Shown: positions 8,390 to 23,589 of the stretch, piece by piece | Position numbering within the stretch: position 1 is the stretch's first letter | How the letters are laid out: every line of letters starts with the position of its first letter | Source of the DNA: a virus | Reading direction: 5' to 3' (one strand) | IMG/VR virus record: IMGVR_UViG_3300044825_001201 | Coordinates: 1-32,289 of that record | DNA: 32,289 nucleotides | Notes under the pieces: generated by a model | What the model saw: the letters and a program-made list of their open reading frames with translations, nothing else | The model's database searches: none | What the model was told of the DNA's origin: nothing | Made by a program: the position numbers and the translations under genes

Positions 8390-9586
8390 ATGAGCGGCAC
8401 TATTGCAGTTGGTGGCCTTACAGAAATCGGCTATGTAGCGGAAGCAGTTTTCGGGTCCACCCCCGTCAGTTCCACTTTTCAGCGCGTTCGCGACGTGTCC
8501 TTCTCTGTCAATCTACAGAAGGAGGCTTATCAGTCCGAGGAGCGTCGTTCTGACCGTATGCGCCAGGACGTGCGCCACGGCTATCGTTCCGTCTCCGGTG
8601 ACATCGTTGGCGAGCTTTCGCAACAGTCCTGGGATGACTTCATTGAAGCCATCTTAGGCGGTACTTGGGCGACGGGTTCTTCCGCGCCTTTTAGCAGCAT
8701 CTCGGTCAACTCTGCCACCAATCGAATCACTTGCGGTTCTGCAAACTTCCCGACTTCTGGTTTCCGAGTTGGTGAAGTGTTCTCTGTCTCCGCCACCCCC
8801 GCAATCACGGGTCTAACGGATCGCTACTTCACGGCGCTCAGCGTTGGCGTTTCCACCATCGAGGTTGAACCCGGCACTATCGGCACCACGGCTACTGCTT
8901 CCGCCACTATCGCTGTCATGGGCCGCAAGGTTGGCGTCGGCACGACCTATCGTTCCTTCACCATTGAGCGTTGGCTGTCCGACCGCAACCTATATCAGCA
9001 GTTCAAGGGCGTCCGTTTCAACCAGATGACGATTTCCGTCCCGGCATCTGGCCTTGTTGGCGTGACATTCAGCGTGATTGGTCAAAACGGTACGGGTTTC
9101 GGCAGTACGATTGCTTCCACTTACGCCACCGCGCCCCAGACCACGCCTTTTGCTGCGGTCAATGGCGAGTTGTATGAAGGCGGCTCTGTTCTCGGCCTCG
9201 TGACTGCCGCCGAAATCACGGTCAACAATAACATGGCGGGGCCGCAGGTGGTTGGCACCAACCTAACCCCGGACCTGCTATTTGGTCGATTTGCCGATAT
9301 CAGCGGCACCATCACGGTTCTGTTCACCACTGCTGCGATGCACGACAAGTTCGTGACTGAGACCGAATCGACGCTGATCCTACGCCTACAGAATCAGGAT
9401 ACGCTCGATAGCACGACGCAATTCATCAACGTCATCCTGCCTCGCATCAAGTATAGCGGCGGCGACGTGGATGATAGCCCCGATACCGGCATCACTGTCA
9501 CCATGCCTTTCGTGGCGCTGAAGCCGCTATCCACCAACACGGCGCAGGGCACGTCTGCTATAGTGGTGCAGCGCGGCAACGTCTAA
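8390..9586 (+). CDS. Major tail protein (tail tube subunit)
   Basis: 398 residues from ATG 8390, with TAGGAG at 8378-8383. The opening GTIAVGGLTEIGYVAEAVFGSTP and the block FSVNLQKEAYQSEERRSDRMRQDVRHGYRSVSG match phage tail tube proteins of the siphovirus type. The middle (residues ~100-180) is Ser/Thr/Ala-rich beta structure, probably an Ig-like or loop insertion, and the C-terminal third is beta strands. The subunits stack into the non-contractile tail around the tape measure. It has its own candidate promoter and is followed by a strong terminator, which would give a short abundant transcript. Confidence 0.9.
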   Translation: MSGTIAVGGLTEIGYVAEAVFGSTPVSSTFQRVRDVSFSVNLQKEAYQSEERRSDRMRQDVRHGYRSVSGDIVGELSQQSWDDFIEAILGGTWATGSSAPFSSISVNSATNRITCGSANFPTSGFRVGEVFSVSATPAITGLTDRYFTALSVGVSTIEVEPGTIGTTATASATIAVMGRKVGVGTTYRSFTIERWLSDRNLYQQFKGVRFNQMTISVPASGLVGVTFSVIGQNGTGFGSTIASTYATAPQTTPFAAVNGELYEGGSVLGLVTAAEITVNNNMAGPQVVGTNLTPDLLFGRFADISGTITVLFTTAAMHDKFVTETESTLILRLQNQDTLDSTTQFINVILPRIKYSGGDVDDSPDTGITVTMPFVALKPLSTNTAQGTSAIVVQRGNV

Positions 9587-9604: not shown

Positions 9605-9635
9605 AGAGAGGCGCCGCAAGGCGCCTCTTTTTTTT
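9605..9635 (+). terminator. Rho-independent terminator after the tail tube gene
   Basis: An 11-bp stem (9605-9615 with 9620-9630, one G-T pair) encloses a GCAA tetraloop and runs into eight T residues (9628-9635). It lies 18 nt after the tail tube stop. The stem/loop/T-tract geometry is near ideal. Confidence 0.92.
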
Positions 9636-9712: not shown

Positions 9713-10114
9713 ATGTCACTTGACGCCCTCGCGCTTGACGTTTCAAACGCTGTTCCGGTTATCCTACTCCACCCCAAGACACGTCAGCCCCTCCGCGATG
9801 AAAACGGCAAGGAGGCTTTTATTTCTGTTGTCAGCCTTGACAGCCCGGAAGTTCAGAAGGTGCAGAAGGCCGCGCTCAACAAGCGCCTCAAGATGCGAGG
9901 ACGTGTCACGTTGACGGCGGACGAGCTTGAGGCTGAGCGTGCTGAGACCCTAGTGGCCGCTACGAAGGAATGGCACCTAGTCACCCCGGATGGCAAGGCG
10001 ATTGCCGCTCCGCTTTCTGAGACTGCGGCCCGCACCATCTACACCGATGCCCGCTTCGCTTGGATCAAGGAGCAGGTCAGTGAAGCCCTAGACGACCGCG
10101 CCACGTTTCTATGA
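9713..10114 (+). CDS. Tail assembly chaperone, short (G) product
   Basis: 133 residues from ATG 9713, with AGGAGG at 9695-9700 and a 12-nt spacer. This is the gene between tail tube and tape measure, the position of lambda gpG. The sequence is mixed: an N-terminal strand-rich part (VPVILLHPKTRQPLRDENGK) and then long helices (VQKVQKAALNKRLKMRGRV; ADELEAERAETLVAATKEW). The product is not in the virion in known phages; it coats the tape measure during tail assembly. The last codons ACG TTT CTA TGA overlap an open +1 frame; see the next entry. Confidence 0.85.
   Translation: MSLDALALDVSNAVPVILLHPKTRQPLRDENGKEAFISVVSLDSPEVQKVQKAALNKRLKMRGRVTLTADELEAERAETLVAATKEWHLVTPDGKAIAAPLSETAARTIYTDARFAWIKEQVSEALDDRATFL
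10092..10114 (+). other. Putative +1 programmed ribosomal frameshift site
   Basis: The G frame ends at TGA 10112-10114. The frame ending at 10580 opens only after TAG 10089-10091, so any switch must occur within these 23 nt. The only good slippery spot is TTT CTA (10106-10111): tRNA-Phe on TTT can slip +1 onto TTC, a perfect match, before the CTA Leu codon. No start codon lies in the downstream frame before 10296. Confidence 0.75.
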
Positions 10115-10580
10115 GGACGGTCTTGAACTTCTAAAAGAACACGCGGAAAGGTATTTCGCGCTACATACCAAGAAAGAGGATGGCACGAGCGAAGCGGATA
10201 GCGTCGCTCGTGCCTTAACTCATCTTGCACGCAGAACTGACCCTGCTTCTCGGCAACAAAAAGCAGAATTAGAAAACCGTCTCGACATTCCGCCTATGCC
10301 GGAAGAATATTCGTTTGCGTGGTCTAGTTTCTTCGACCTTCAAAGCACACGAAGTTCAAACGGGTTTTCTGCCAACCCCATCAGTTATCTGGAGATGCAA
10401 GCCTACTTGCATTTGACGGGGCGCGTATTGCTTCCCTACGAGATACGCGCTATAAAAGTTATAGACACCGCTTTCCTCAACACCCAGGCTGATTTGGCTA
10501 AAGCGGCACGGGCCGCGAGGGAAGCCGCAAAGAAATCTGACCCAACGCCCACGCCAAAACGGGTTTCTAGACGGGGGTAG
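10110..10580 (+). CDS. Tail assembly chaperone T extension (made as G-T fusion by frameshift)
   Basis: Frame-0 extension, 156 residues, read only by frameshift from the upstream G gene: the fusion would be 288 residues joining ...RATF to YEDGLELLKE. The frame is open through a helix-rich segment (LELLKEHAERYFALHTKKEDG, SVARALTHLARRTDP) and a C-terminal block with SYLEMQAYLHLTGRVLLPYEIRAIKVIDTAFL, which resembles the T part of phage tail chaperones (large hydrophobic residues around L-P-Y-E). An ATG at 10296 exists but starting there would discard about 60 conserved-looking residues and has no ribosome site. In lambda, gpG and gpGT together chaperone the tape measure; the fusion is made at low frequency. 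Confidence 0.8.
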   Translation, partial: YEDGLELLKEHAERYFALHTKKEDGTSEADSVARALTHLARRTDPASRQQKAELENRLDIPPMPEEYSFAWSSFFDLQSTRSSNGFSANPISYLEMQAYLHLTGRVLLPYEIRAIKVIDTAFLNTQADLAKAARAAREAAKKSDPTPTPKRVSRRG

Positions 10581-10582
10581 GT

Positions 10583-13500
10583 TTGTCGGATTCAGTTGCT
10601 AATCTTACAGTTAAGGTCGATACGAAGTCGGTTGCTGCTGCGATCAAGGCTTTGGACGCGCTTGCGTCGAAGGCTGGTGCGGTAGAGAAGTCGGTCGGGA
10701 ACATTGGTGCGGCGGCGAAGAAGCAATCCGAAGGCACCCGGAAAGCAGCCGACGAAACAGCAAAGGCGGAACGTGCGCTCGCTAAGATGGAAGCGCGCAT
10801 TGAAAAGGCGGCGCAACAATACGAAAAATTTAATCGTATGATGAACAAGTATACGTTGGATAGCGGGGTTCGTTCGGACCTTCAAAATAGGGTTAACCGT
10901 GAATTTGAGCGCCACAACCGAATCATCAGCAATGTTTCGGCGTCTCAACGCGATTTGAATGCGTCTACCGAACGATATAAGAATACGCTTCGGCAGTTAG
11001 AAGAAAGCGTAAAAACCGCTGCAACCCTTCAAAAAGAGAAAGCAAAGGCGCTTAAGGAGACTGAAAGACAGGCCGCTAAGACGGCAGCGATGGAAGCGTC
11101 CGCTGCAAAACAACAAGCGAGCAATCTTGCTTCTATTGAAAAGGCGTTGCAGCAAGCCCAAACTCGTGTTTCTGGAATCACCGGACGCGCGGGGAGGCAA
11201 CTAAACACTGCGGGGGCGGCGAATATATCTCGCGAAGCCGATGCCGCTCTTGCGTCTTACACCAGAAACCTACGAACATACAGCGTCGGCAGCATCGAAT
11301 CTATCCGTGCTACCGCCGATTTCAACCGAGAAATGCAACGCCTCAGCGGCGAAATTGCTCGCGTTGGCGGGTTGCTGCCAAACATCAGCAACGGGGCCAG
11401 AACCGTATCAGCAGCGTTCGGAGCGGCAAACGCATCCGTAGGTGGGTTTAGTCGCGCCATTTTCAACACAAGTGCGGCCCTAAGTGCGCTTACGGGAACA
11501 CTGGCTTTGCGTGAAATCACGCAAAGCATTATGGAATTTGAAAGATTTACGAATACCCTTCGTACCGTATCTGGTTCTTCGGGTGAATTTTCTCGCAACC
11601 TAGAATTTCTTTTTAATGAAGCCAATCGCGTTGGGTTTGCAGTCGGGGATGTAGGTAACTCTTTTGCCCGCCTCTCTTTGGCCATGCAGAGTTCTGGTTT
11701 TAATGCAAATGAGAGCAGACAGGCGTTCACGCTACTTACTGAGGCGTCGCGTAACTTCGGCCTTTCTTCTGCGGATACCATGGGTGTTATCCGCGCCTTG
11801 GAACAGTCTATGTCCAAGGGTAAGTTCATGGCTGAAGAAGTGCGGTTGCAGATGGGCGACCGCCTTCCTGTGGCTATGGCCGCGCTTGAACGGGCGGTTA
11901 CGAAAGTCGATGGCAAGCAATCTGATTTGAATAAGCGATTTGAAGAAGGGACGATTGATACTCGACGGTATGCCCTTGAGTTCGTCCGTCAAATCAACGC
12001 CTTGTCTGGTGGCGCTGATGCCTTATCGCGCACGTCCAATTCTATCGCCGCTGCATTTGGTCGCCTCAACACCGAATTTGTTTTGACGACGAAAGCATTC
12101 AGCGAAGGCGGGTTTTCAAACGCGGTCATAATCTTAACGCAAAACTTCATCGCGCTTCTTCAAACGTTACGCGAAGTCGGGGTTATCAACGCGGCTGGTG
12201 CCGCGATGGAGTTTTTGGCAAAGCAAACAACCCTCCTTACAACGGCGTTTGTTGGTTTGACTGCGGTATTGTCCGCGTCTTTTATTGGTTGGATCGCACG
12301 CACAGTAGCGGCCCTCTCTCCTATCGGTAGGATTGTCTCTACCATTGTGGCAGGCATGACACTCTTGGCGGGGTTGATTAATAATATCAGTTCCGCACAA
12401 CGACTGACCAACGACATTACTGCCGCAACCAATAATCTAAACATTGCCCATCGAGAGGGCATGGCTATTCTAGAAGGGTTTACGAGTTCGATTCAAAATA
12501 ACAGTAAGACGCTAGACGCATCCGCGTCCGCGCTCGATAAGAGAATCAATTTCCTACGTCAAATTGGTGTGTCTGAAATTGAACTAACCCGCATTGTGGC
12601 CGAAGAAGAAGGCAAACGACTAAAAACCAAATTAGAAGTCGCGCAAGCGGAATTGACGGTGTTGCAACAAACGTATGCCACGATACGCGAAAGAGAAGTT
12701 GGGTTTAGCAACGCTATTTCTAATTCTTTGAACGCGACATATGAGAATAATGCGGAGAATGTTAAACGCGGTTATGCTCAAATTTCTCGGGCGCAACTTG
12801 AAGCTCAGAAGAATTTTGCAAGCACATGGGATCGCATTCGTGGCGAAGTAGTTAGTGGGACAAAAACAGCGCAAGATGCTTATAAAGAGTTTTCTAAGGT
12901 AGCATCAGAAGCGGGTTTGTCGGCGGATGAAACCGTTCGTGGTTTGCTTCAAAGTCTATTGAAGATCGCGGAAGGAGAAAAGCCGCTTCAAAGCCAAGTG
13001 GATTTAGTCCGTGCGTTGGAAAATGCGTTCAATGCGCTTCGGCTTGCAGCGGAAGACCCGGTTACTTTTCGCGTGAGTGTTGAGACTAATTTCCCTGGTG
13101 AAGATGCGGGCCTCATGGCCGCGTTTGGTTCTAGGACGGATTATAGAAAATATCAAAGCGTAAAAGAAGCTCAAGATAAAAAAGCTGGTGAAAAAATTCT
13201 CCAAGAAGCCTACCGCCAAACAACTGGTGACGTTAAAGCCGTCGTAGATGCAGAAAAATTTCTAAAACAAGTTCGTGCAGACGCGGCATCAGGCAATGTC
13301 GGAGCAAAGAAAATTCTCGATGACTACAACGAGGCACTTGCGAAGAACGATAAAAAAATATCCGGCACGGAAAAAAGCCTGAGCAAATATATTTCGACAC
13401 TCCGGATTGAGATCGAAGAAAATCAAGGATTAATCAATGCCTACAAGCAAAGCACGCTTGCTGGCGAAGAAATGGAATTGCAAATCAAGGCGCAGACCAA

Positions 13501-16189
13501 GGCGCTCGATTTCGGGACCAAAGGCTCTAAAGAGTATGAAGCCGCCCTAAAGGCTATTCTCCCCCTCATGCGGGAGCGCAAACAGCAAGAGCGCACAGAC
13601 GAAGTGGTGAAAGCGAACACCAGACTACGAGAGGAAGAGGTAGCGGTTCTTGAAAAAGAACGTGAACTCATTGGCGCAAGCACTGTTTTGCGCGAACAAG
13701 AACTTGCTATTCTAAAATTGCGCCAGCAATATCGTGGCGCATCTCCAGACGAAATTTCTGCACTAGAAACCACAACTCGTAAATCTATTGAGCTACGCCA
13801 ACAGAATGACCGACTTGATAAATCCTATCAAGCGATAGCCGACATTGGCGTGCGGGCGTTTGAGCAAGTTGGCGACGCCATCACAGAGGCATTTGCGAAG
13901 GGCGAAATCCGCGCACTAAACTTTGGCAACGTCATACGCGGCGTGATGTCGTCTATCATCCAATCCATCCTTCGCCTTGGCGTAGTCAACCCAATCATAA
14001 ACAGTATTTTCTCCGGGACTTCACTCCCGACTTTGGGGTTGGGCCTGTCCGCTATGGGCGGTGCTGGCGCCGCTGCCGCTGCGGGTGGTGGGGGTATGGG
14101 CATCATGCAGATGCTCGGGCTTTCGTCCTTGATTCCGAAAGAAGGTCTGTTTGGGGCTATGGGTTTGACGGGGCCTGGGGGGTTATTTAGCACCCAACTC
14201 ATCGCCCCGACAGGAATGGTCGCTATCGCTGAGCCTAGCATAGCAACTGGCGCTGCGGGGTTGATGGCCCCGTCAGGCGGTTTGACCCTCGGCAGTTTCC
14301 TCGGCGCCGCAGGTCTTGGTTTTGGTGCTGGCAATCTATTCAACAGTCTGATCGGCGGCAACCAGACCGGGGGCATGGTGGGTAGCGGCCTAGGCTCTGC
14401 TGCCGGTGCCCTGCTTGCAGGCGCGGGCCTTCTTGGTCCTCTTGGCCCCATCGGTGCAGCCCTGATTGGTGGCTTGGCTGGTGGCGGTTTAGGCGGCCTC
14501 TTTGGCCCCGGTGAATCTGATCGCGGTTTTAGTTATGCGGTTCGCGGTCAAAATGGCAGACTCGCCATGACCGATATGTTCTACAACGAACAGGGCCGCG
14601 CTCAATTCCAAGAAGCAGAAGCGGGCATCAACGCTATCAACGCCTATTTGCAACAGCGCGGCCTTTCCGTAACGGGCGACCGCGCCGTGGGTGGCAATCG
14701 CTTCGGCATGGGCAACCTTGGGTATGGCGAAGCGGCCAGCTTCAGCGAAGCGATTGCTTCTATGAATTTTGCGGCAACCGCCAACGATGAATTGAACCGT
14801 GCGCTTTCGGGCCGGTCTTTCGCTGGCCTAGAAAAGTTGCAAGGATTTGTCGAAGGCTTCATCAGCATCCAAGACACCATCAAGGGATTGACCGAAGACC
14901 CGATCCCTGAATTTACAAAACAGATGGATGCGTTGATTGACTCATTCGCCCAGGCGGCTGCCAAGGCGCGTGAGTATGGCATCTCTGAAGATGAGTTGAA
15001 TGACGCGCGGGATGCAGGCATCGCCAAACTTGAAAAGCAACGCGCCCTTACCATTCGCGACACGGCACTCGGCCTTGAAATCCGTCGCCTTACCGCACTC
15101 GGCCTTGACCAACAGGCGGAGCAGATTCAACTTTCCTACAACACCCAAAAGGAGATTGAATCCTTCACCGCCTCGCTAGACGCGCTTGCGCTGACGGCAG
15201 AAGAAAAGTCCAAGATGCTCGTGAAACTAGAAGAAGTGCAGGCCGAAGAACGCGCGGCTATCATGCGTGAAAGCACAAAAGGCATCAGCGACTTCCTAGA
15301 TTCGCTACGTGTTGGCGGGCTATCAGGCACCACGGGTATGGGGCGCCTAGCCGCAGCAGGAGAAATATTCAATCGCGATCTATCCGCAGCACAAACAGGC
15401 GATAAGAATGCGCTTCAGCGCATCACGCAATCGTCTGAAACCTATCTGAATTTGGCGCGGGAGATTTATGGTTCCACCAGCGGGTTCCATGACATTAGGG
15501 ATGTTGTCACTTCGTCTCTGCAAGGATTGATTGATAATCCAATAGGTCAATCCTTAATGGATATCAACAACGTGCCTTTCGTCAAGGAAATGGCGGGACT
15601 GGGGCAAACGGCTTTTGAATCCGCCTCGCTGGAATACAGCAAGCGGTTCGATGAAAAATTGGAATCGCTTTTAGTAGTCGCAGAAAATATCCAAACGGCG
15701 GTCGAAAAGACGGCTGAAGTTCAGACGTATGCGGTGCAACAAGACTACATGTTTGATGCCGAATCTTCCTCTGGGGGAGGATTCGGAGGAGACATGAGCG
15801 GCGGTGGCGGCGGCGGAATGGCGGCAGCACTTGGTGCGGCCCTCTACCACGGTAAGGTCATGGCATACGCCAACGGCGGCATCCCTGACTACGTGAATAG
15901 CCCCACGCTGGCGCCTATGGCCTTGTTTGGTGAAGCAGGCCCTGAAGCCATCATGCCGCTGCGCCGTGGTCCTGACGGGCGCCTAGGCGTAGAGGTAAAC
16001 GGCGGTAACACCCAAGCCGTTGTCGGTGAATTGCGCGCCGTCAGGAATGCTATTGAGTCTTTGGAAGAAACCGTTGCGCGGAATGATGCGGACCAAGGCA
16101 GCGCCCTACTTGAAGCCGTCTCCGGTCTTCAGATACAGATTGGCGAATTGAGAGAAGAACTTCGCACATCCCGTCTGAGGGCACAATGA
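10583..16189 (+). CDS. Tail tape measure protein
   Basis: 1868 residues from TTG 10583 (GGGGG at 10573-10577 upstream; the first ATG in frame is ~70 codons further in). It sets tail length and guides DNA ejection. The N-terminal ~200 residues are Ala/Lys-rich coiled coil. A tape-measure domain (MEFERFTNTLRTVSGSSGEF...MSKGKFMAEEVRLQMGDR) lies near residues 310-430. A hydrophobic stretch, likely membrane-active, is near 540-600, followed by more coiled coil. A Gly/Ala-rich region runs near 1150-1305. The C-terminal motif LFGEAGPEAIMPL (~residue 1780) is typical of tape measures. It is the longest gene here; its TGA overlaps the next ATG. No lysozyme or peptidase motif was seen. Confidence 0.95.
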   Translation: MSDSVANLTVKVDTKSVAAAIKALDALASKAGAVEKSVGNIGAAAKKQSEGTRKAADETAKAERALAKMEARIEKAAQQYEKFNRMMNKYTLDSGVRSDLQNRVNREFERHNRIISNVSASQRDLNASTERYKNTLRQLEESVKTAATLQKEKAKALKETERQAAKTAAMEASAAKQQASNLASIEKALQQAQTRVSGITGRAGRQLNTAGAANISREADAALASYTRNLRTYSVGSIESIRATADFNREMQRLSGEIARVGGLLPNISNGARTVSAAFGAANASVGGFSRAIFNTSAALSALTGTLALREITQSIMEFERFTNTLRTVSGSSGEFSRNLEFLFNEANRVGFAVGDVGNSFARLSLAMQSSGFNANESRQAFTLLTEASRNFGLSSADTMGVIRALEQSMSKGKFMAEEVRLQMGDRLPVAMAALERAVTKVDGKQSDLNKRFEEGTIDTRRYALEFVRQINALSGGADALSRTSNSIAAAFGRLNTEFVLTTKAFSEGGFSNAVIILTQNFIALLQTLREVGVINAAGAAMEFLAKQTTLLTTAFVGLTAVLSASFIGWIARTVAALSPIGRIVSTIVAGMTLLAGLINNISSAQRLTNDITAATNNLNIAHREGMAILEGFTSSIQNNSKTLDASASALDKRINFLRQIGVSEIELTRIVAEEEGKRLKTKLEVAQAELTVLQQTYATIREREVGFSNAISNSLNATYENNAENVKRGYAQISRAQLEAQKNFASTWDRIRGEVVSGTKTAQDAYKEFSKVASEAGLSADETVRGLLQSLLKIAEGEKPLQSQVDLVRALENAFNALRLAAEDPVTFRVSVETNFPGEDAGLMAAFGSRTDYRKYQSVKEAQDKKAGEKILQEAYRQTTGDVKAVVDAEKFLKQVRADAASGNVGAKKILDDYNEALAKNDKKISGTEKSLSKYISTLRIEIEENQGLINAYKQSTLAGEEMELQIKAQTKALDFGTKGSKEYEAALKAILPLMRERKQQERTDEVVKANTRLREEEVAVLEKERELIGASTVLREQELAILKLRQQYRGASPDEISALETTTRKSIELRQQNDRLDKSYQAIADIGVRAFEQVGDAITEAFAKGEIRALNFGNVIRGVMSSIIQSILRLGVVNPIINSIFSGTSLPTLGLGLSAMGGAGAAAAAGGGGMGIMQMLGLSSLIPKEGLFGAMGLTGPGGLFSTQLIAPTGMVAIAEPSIATGAAGLMAPSGGLTLGSFLGAAGLGFGAGNLFNSLIGGNQTGGMVGSGLGSAAGALLAGAGLLGPLGPIGAALIGGLAGGGLGGLFGPGESDRGFSYAVRGQNGRLAMTDMFYNEQGRAQFQEAEAGINAINAYLQQRGLSVTGDRAVGGNRFGMGNLGYGEAASFSEAIASMNFAATANDELNRALSGRSFAGLEKLQGFVEGFISIQDTIKGLTEDPIPEFTKQMDALIDSFAQAAAKAREYGISEDELNDARDAGIAKLEKQRALTIRDTALGLEIRRLTALGLDQQAEQIQLSYNTQKEIESFTASLDALALTAEEKSKMLVKLEEVQAEERAAIMRESTKGISDFLDSLRVGGLSGTTGMGRLAAAGEIFNRDLSAAQTGDKNALQRITQSSETYLNLAREIYGSTSGFHDIRDVVTSSLQGLIDNPIGQSLMDINNVPFVKEMAGLGQTAFESASLEYSKRFDEKLESLLVVAENIQTAVEKTAEVQTYAVQQDYMFDAESSSGGGFGGDMSGGGGGGMAAALGAALYHGKVMAYANGGIPDYVNSPTLAPMALFGEAGPEAIMPLRRGPDGRLGVEVNGGNTQAVVGELRAVRNAIESLEETVARNDADQGSALLEAVSGLQIQIGELREELRTSRLRAQ

Positions 16190-22773: not shown

Positions 22774-23010
22774 ATGACGAAGAAGAAGAACAGCACGACT
22801 GGCGCTGGCCGTTCTCAGTTGATGGCGCAAGCCGAACGGCTATCGGAAATGGGGATTGAAAAGGCCGTCACGCTTTTTCTTGATAAAGAGGGAAATGCGG
22901 GTATGGTTATGACCGATAGCGTCTCGAATATGGAGGCTGTTTTTCTTTTCCGTCAAGGAGAATACTTCATCTTCACAACTGACGATGAAGATGAAAACGA
23001 CGAAGAGTAA
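22774..23010 (+). CDS. Hypothetical small acidic protein
   Basis: 78 residues from ATG 22774. Lys-rich start (MTKKKNSTTGAG), then a helix and beta strands (EKAVTLFLDKEGNAGMVMTD, AVFLFRQGEYFIFTTD) and a very acidic tail DDEDENDEE. The TAA stop (23008-23010) lies inside the acceptor stem of the following tRNA. Not recognised. Confidence 0.65.
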   Translation: MTKKKNSTTGAGRSQLMAQAERLSEMGIEKAVTLFLDKEGNAGMVMTDSVSNMEAVFLFRQGEYFIFTTDDEDENDEE

Positions 23011-23083
23011 GCGTAGCTCAATTAGGTAGAGCGGCCTGCTCATAACAGGCTAGGTGCAGGTTCAAGTCCTGCCGCTTACACCA
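23007..23083 (+). tRNA. tRNA with CAU anticodon (Met elongator or Ile2)
   Basis: A 77-nt cloverleaf: acceptor GTAAGCG pairs with CGCTTAC (7 bp), D arm GCTC/GAGC, anticodon stem GCCTG/CAGGC with loop CTCATAA, T arm GCAGG/CCTGC with TTCAAGT, discriminator A and encoded CCA. First base pair G-C and no GGG/CCC anticodon stem argue against initiator tRNA. CAU can read Met, or Ile AUA after lysidine modification. The 5' end lies one base before the TAA stop of the preceding gene. Confidence 0.93.
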
Positions 23084-23502: not shown

Positions 23503-23589
23503 GGAGGCGTGGCGGAACAGGCATACGCGGCAGACTCAAAATCTGCTACCTGAAAAGGTTTGTGGGTTCAAATCCCTCCGCCTCCACCA
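23503..23589 (+). tRNA. tRNA-Leu (CAA)
   Basis: An 87-nt class II tRNA with acceptor GGAGGCG/CGCCTCC, anticodon stem GCAGA/TCTGC with loop CTCAAAA (anticodon CAA), a long variable arm (about TACCTGAAAAGGTTT) and T arm GTGGG TTCAAAT CCCTC-type ending, discriminator A and CCA. It begins at the base after the deaminase stop codon. CAA reads Leu UUG codons. Confidence 0.93.

Follow-up and report, generated by a model that had tools for sequence, protein, structure and literature searches.

The two small reading frames between the tail tube and tape measure genes of the phage analysed here (the window, 32,289 nucleotides long) very probably yield a tail assembly chaperone, G, and a G-T fusion that is produced by a +1 ribosomal frameshift at UUU_C, T being made only in this way. 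Comparison with relatives further suggests, with somewhat less assurance, that within this one chaperone family slipping changed its direction (-1 or +1) on at least two occasions while the hinge Phe stayed the same, through local rewriting (A_AAU_UUU_A versus AAC_UUU_C) that kept the protein register, and that the +1 versions converged on UUU_CGN, the motif of influenza PA-X that has also been proposed for plant amalgaviruses.

The G and T reading frames and their overlap are real, and the coordinates given in the preliminary description (G ending at 10114, an overlap of 23 nt, no T start before ATG 10296) agree with ours (Table 1). G starts with ATG and its 3' end reads GCC ACG TTT CTA TGA. 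The T frame is open over 10092-10580, with its own TAG at 10578-10580, and entering it from G requires an offset of +1 (equivalently -2). Two small overlapping ORFs with the tail tube gene on one side and the tape measure gene on the other had been taken for a tail chaperone pair, and the matches of the four genes to phrog_313, PF23812, Phage_tube_2 and TMP_3 bear this out. T reaches 54.7 bits against PF23812 in a profile search in which the cut-off is 27, and the identification of the two frames as a pair of the lambda G/GT type is strongly supported by these similarities.

Table 1. Coordinates of the G/T region and its neighbouring genes in the window
Feature	Position	Strand	Evidence or remarks
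Whole record			IMG/VR virus record, 32,289 bases
G, tail assembly chaperone, zero-frame product of 133 aa (...DDRATFL)	9713..10114	+	phrog_313 Tail assembly chaperone, E=1.3e-8; AGGAGG site upstream
Overlap of 23 nt, 7 candidate codons, which must contain the shift	10092..10114	+	From T-frame TAG 10089-10091 to G stop TGA 10112-10114
Putative shift site TTT_C; A-site codon CTA, then stop TGA	10106..10109	+	Sole +1 re-pairing codon of the overlap; TTT in 36/36
T domain, predicted product only as a 288 aa G-T fusion (...RATF-YEDGLELL...)	10107..10580	+	Pfam Phage_TAC_18 PF23812, E=1.1e-14
Start-less part of T, first three predicted helices (residues 2-20, 29-41, 46-58)	10107..10295	+	AlphaFold2; stop counts; dN/dS well below 1
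Tail tube protein, upstream neighbour	8390..9586	+	PF18906 Phage_tube_2, E=2.8e-37
Tape measure protein, TTG start, downstream neighbour	10583..16189	+	PF20155 TMP_3, E=4.2e-22

In an AlphaFold2 model of T only, the 157 aa from the hinge Phe onwards have a mean pLDDT of 93.5 and form six helices. Three of them precede the ATG at residue 64, in line with the helical character that had been ascribed to this part of the frame. Among the best named structural neighbours of T in BFVD are proteins of Acinetobacter phage Loki and Escherichia phage Seurat that are annotated as tail chaperones; a PDB fold search with the T model matched no solved structure, and weak calmodulin matches from a PDB sequence search were disregarded. 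When TTTC is read as one Phe, the fusion of a Limnohabitans phage (L005) aligns over residues 9-253 with positions 18-251 of the 258 of phrog_313 (E 6e-19), and the window fusion crosses the junction in phrog_8233 with an E value of 7.8e-6, versus 0.034 with T alone. On these alignments, both PHROG families appear to contain fused versions already.

The first ATG, GTG or TTG in the T frame is ATG 10296, which is codon 69 of the open frame and lies 63 codons past the junction Phe; no Shine-Dalgarno sequence precedes it (AACCGTCTCGACATTCCGCCT). The ATG at 10111-10113 that overlaps the G stop was discarded as a T start, since it belongs to the third frame, which closes at 10134. In phages whose hosts include Bradyrhizobium, Caulobacter, Vibrio, Curvibacter and Roseobacter, translated matches start no more than a few residues from the junction, and those in IMG/VR contigs begin at or near the first T residue at 99, 73, 52 and 34% identity; in the homologues, the matching region starts at the hinge Phe, long before any start codon. 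Mean dN and dS over codons 6-63 of the 73% clade are 0.012 and 0.191, respectively, the median dN/dS over codons 6-45 of the UUU_CGN clade is 0.21, and over codons 6-50 of 25 relatives the other two frames contain 95 and 137 stops, the T frame none. To judge from these comparisons, the region 10107-10295 is under purifying selection, and because its protein is also conserved down to 34% identity, it is not a chance open frame.

T might alternatively be a separate gene that is started internally, at ATG 10296 or elsewhere, by coupling or by independent entry. An ATG is indeed present, some BFVD entries resemble such truncated forms, and GenBank annotators have placed short T ORFs at internal starts: in five relatives (L001, L003, L004, L005, L006), T is recorded as a short hypothetical protein whose start codon is internal or, in Limnohabitans phage DC31, is unannotated. 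However, ATG 10296 has no ribosome site before it, a start there would remove helices 1-3 of a confidently modelled domain, and the region so lost is the one under purifying selection. Moreover, the first T start codon of the relatives is scattered from 18 to 112 codons past the hinge, T is without ATG in 12 of 36 +1 representatives, and L072 has no ATG, GTG or TTG in T at all. The preliminary description had named homologues whose T has its own start and ribosome site as a refutation, and no conserved T start or ribosome site was found among them. We regard a separate T gene as very improbable. Four tests, namely the homologous matches, the selection, the modelled helices, and the relatives lacking ATG or any start, indicate that T is translated from before its ATG. 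In many database records T would then be cut at a false internal start, which removes part of the folded domain.

For the position of the shift, about 160 related phage sequences were compared overall, the homologues having been sampled by pattern-seeded scans and not exhaustively; a scan of bacterial genomes gave no close relatives, and there was no direct DNA similarity to phage records. The direction of the shift was labelled according to which frame stayed open for longer upstream. The +1 set comprises 36 non-redundant relatives (T <95% alike) after removal of L026, L088 and L107, of which L088, an apparent +1 row without TTT, was a truncated locus. In each relative, all G codons from the upstream T-frame stop to the stop of G were scanned for re-pairing. 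Exactly one codon re-pairs at +1 in each of the 36, a hinge TTT at the same aligned position, and the permitted stretch narrows to 3 codons in L027, L028, L052 and L074. The base that follows the hinge TTT is C in 34 representatives and T in 2; the hinge is never TTC, and the other Phe codons of the same genes are 69% TTT and 31% TTC. Because the hinge TTT alone re-pairs at +1 in all 36 and is never TTC, the slip is most simply one of tRNA-Phe from UUU to UUC with the product ...RATF-YEDG..., which are the site and peptide that had been predicted from the window alone.

The codon after the hinge is CGA in 21 relatives, CGC in 6, CGT in 2, CAG in 2, and otherwise CTA, CTT, TCT, TGC or CAA. UUU_CGN is thus found in 29/36 +1 relatives, and the window clade departs from this consensus: a P-site UUU followed by C with a +1 offset, as in the UUU_CGN class, is present in the window, and CGN in the A site is absent, the codon being CTA. 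The junction ACG TTT CTA TGA is common to five contigs that are >=99% identical over T (one partial; from other metagenomes), the 73% clade has ACG TTT CTT TGA, the 52% clade ACG TTT TCT TGA, and further relatives AAC TTT CGN. Cultured Curvibacter phage P26059A, which reads AAC TTT CGA, and Limnohabitans phage DC31 carry the same +1 offset. A comparison of homologues had been recommended for TTTCTA and the offset; TTT and the offset are kept throughout the +1 relatives, and the A-site codon varies.

A -2 shift would give an identical frame offset, and it has a natural precedent in phage Mu (PMC3498833). However, no codon in the window overlap re-pairs two bases back, and only L013 of the 36 has such codons, two in number, at 21 and 25 codons upstream of the hinge; a -2 shift is therefore very improbable, and the +1 direction of the preliminary description, conserved in the homologues, stands. 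Since the window is an IMG/VR virus contig, it might be argued that a sequencing or assembly error, or decay to a pseudogene, has split what is truly one in-frame ORF. An error of this kind had been named as a refutation in the preliminary description. It can practically be dismissed, because the five near-identical contigs share the junction; the offset recurs in relatives of 73, 52 and ~34% identity, the two cultured phages included, and T is under purifying selection. Bacterial RNA polymerase normally slips only on A/T runs of far greater length, and the probability that the same fusion arises without ribosomal slipping, from transcripts with a base added or dropped at a run of only TTT (TTTT in two representatives), is negligible.

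The occurrence of the slip, its rate, a pausing element and the function in tail assembly are what we infer here, and the process may be pictured as follows. Most ribosomes would terminate at TGA 10112 and release G. In a minority, tRNA-Phe (GAA) would be paired with UUU in the P site while CUA, just before UGA, is in the A site; the tRNA would move one base forward and pair with UUC, and reading would resume at UAU GAG GAC... The outcome would be the 288-residue G-T fusion, with T made by no other route. By analogy with lambda, G may coat the tape measure protein and the rarer G-T may recruit tail tube subunits, in which case the slip rate would set the G : G-T ratio.

No notable RNA structure was found close 3' of the shift site (60-nt fold z = 0.39), and rare-codon pausing at CTA was rejected, as this codon is not rare in the phage (12.7 per 1000 in the phage's own usage). 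Two hairpins that follow the shift site at distances of ~30 and ~75 nt (10142-10210) are conserved in the window clade. In some relatives they are more stable than shuffled sequences (z about -2 to -5), and they display slight covariation, one example being C-G to U-A at columns 85/101; being too distant for the usual action and also encoding a conserved peptide, they were not retained as part of the signal. A prfB-type slip at CTT_TGA would be possible in the 73% clade only, and not at CTA or TCT.

Tail chaperones of the lambda type serve as the textbook example of -1 frameshifting. Lambda G/GT and its relatives among the tail assembly chaperones use a -1 shift (Xu, Hendrix and Duda 2004, cited through PMC5009743). 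Like lambda G/GT, the window has a pair of small ORFs flanked by tail tube and tape measure, of which the second would be expressed only as a C-terminal extension with the same presumed role; unlike it, the window would use a +1, single-tRNA slip at UUU_C, and with this offset the tandem slippage of the canonical -1 heptamer (X_XXY_YYZ) does not apply. In Escherichia coli prfB (RF2), the +1 shift occurs at CUU_UGA. The resemblance lies in a P-site +1 slip beside UGA, the 73% relatives reading TTT CTT TGA; unlike in prfB, there is no Shine-Dalgarno-like element just upstream, and the common slip codon is UUU, one codon further up. In bacteria, UUU_Ynn is reported to be especially prone to +1 slipping (PMC5009743), and in SPP1 the tail tube protein is made with a +1 shift and the chaperone with a putative -1 shift (PMC6316719).

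A +1 shift at UUU_CGN has been demonstrated in influenza PA-X and put forward for the tail chaperones of haloviruses. For the HF1-group haloviruses, it was proposed from sequence at TTT-CGC (PMC7230728). These share with the present family a tail chaperone pair of a tailed virus, the +1 offset and the conserved TTT-CGN, but they are archaeal myoviruses, whereas the present family occurs in bacterial phages and the window reads TTT CTA. In influenza A, PA-X is produced by a +1 shift at UCC_UUU_CGU (PMC3498833), and amalgaviruses, fijiviruses and chronic bee paralysis virus have been proposed to carry related sites. The features in common are a P-site tRNA-Phe slip on UUU_C, predicted in the present family, and the A-site CGN of 29/36 relatives; the differences are the eukaryotic ribosomes, the unrelated genes, an E site that is mostly AAC (ACG in the window) instead of UCC, and the A-site CUA of the window. 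The preliminary description had held that most tail chaperone shifts are -1 and that +1 cases are few. The minority status of forward slipping is confirmed by the PRFect/SEA-PHAGES training set, although the 350 forward versus 2368 backward slippery sites in it do not support great rarity (PMC10885494).

Another 33 non-redundant relatives, which are more distant, require -1, and their homologous Phe is TTT in 33/33. Their junctions are AAT TTT with a preceding A (A_AAU_UUU) in Bradyrhizobium phage ppBdUSDA122-1, L103 and L110, GAT TTT in the Roseobacter CRP-6 group, and TTT TTC, TTT TTG or TTT TTT in phages of Vibrio, Pseudomonas and Caulobacter; U_UUU_UUY is, with A_AAU_UUU, a heptamer form of the -1 relatives. 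Lambda-type heptamers occur at about the same place in Pasteurella phage Pm86 (G_GGA_AAC), whose T frame requires -1, and in Mannheimia phage 1152AP2 (G_GGA_AAG). Whichever way the frame is changed, the fusion sequence continues after ...F with Y, D, A, V, S or F, and the protein register is kept. Use of -1 at the same hinge codon is beyond what reading a single sequence could show. It should be noted that in Pm86 (L195) TTT CTA comes directly after G_GGA_AAC, the -1 heptamer thus adjoining the +1 tetranucleotide of the window.

The T tree requires two changes to account for the +1 state, with the window clade apart from the UUU_CGN clade, and trees with a single change were found in 0/200 bootstrap replicates; a single +1 clade was not rejected by the AU test (p 0.112, and 0.183 when four long rows were left out). 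An alignment-wide scan of 11 divergent T proteins found insufficient conservation. Judged by the distribution of junctions and the tree, at least one change of slip direction at the hinge appears secure, and two are likely. In the open-access literature, we found no description of a +1 shift in this chaperone family, nor of a switch in direction at one hinge. The frameshift trick itself is known; forward and backward slipping at one spot among relatives is unusual. The crossing of one junction by either -1 or +1 slipping suggests that the fusion and its rate are under selection, and not the slip mechanism, and the family would illustrate the replacement of one recoding signal by another with the product left intact. 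The cultured Curvibacter phage P26059A and Limnohabitans phage DC31 provide systems in which UUU_C +1 slipping could be tested in bacteria.

Some observations on the surroundings of the gene pair may be added. In the record of Caulobacter phage DMCA (L002 1-860), G and T come first and are shortly followed by a gene annotated as putative terminase, not tape measure, an order that may reflect the point at which the record opens or a misannotation. The window phage carries genes for tRNA-Met (CAT; 23007-23083) and tRNA-Leu (CAA; 23503-23589). Finally, a hairpin, AGAGGCGCC GCAA GGCGCCTCT, followed by a T run is located at 9607-9635 on the + strand, in the gap that separates the tail tube stop from the start of G. 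It is likely an intrinsic terminator or attenuator, which would reduce G, G-T and tape measure relative to the tail tube; a terminator is annotated at the corresponding place in Mannheimia phage 1152AP2 (L196 502-531).
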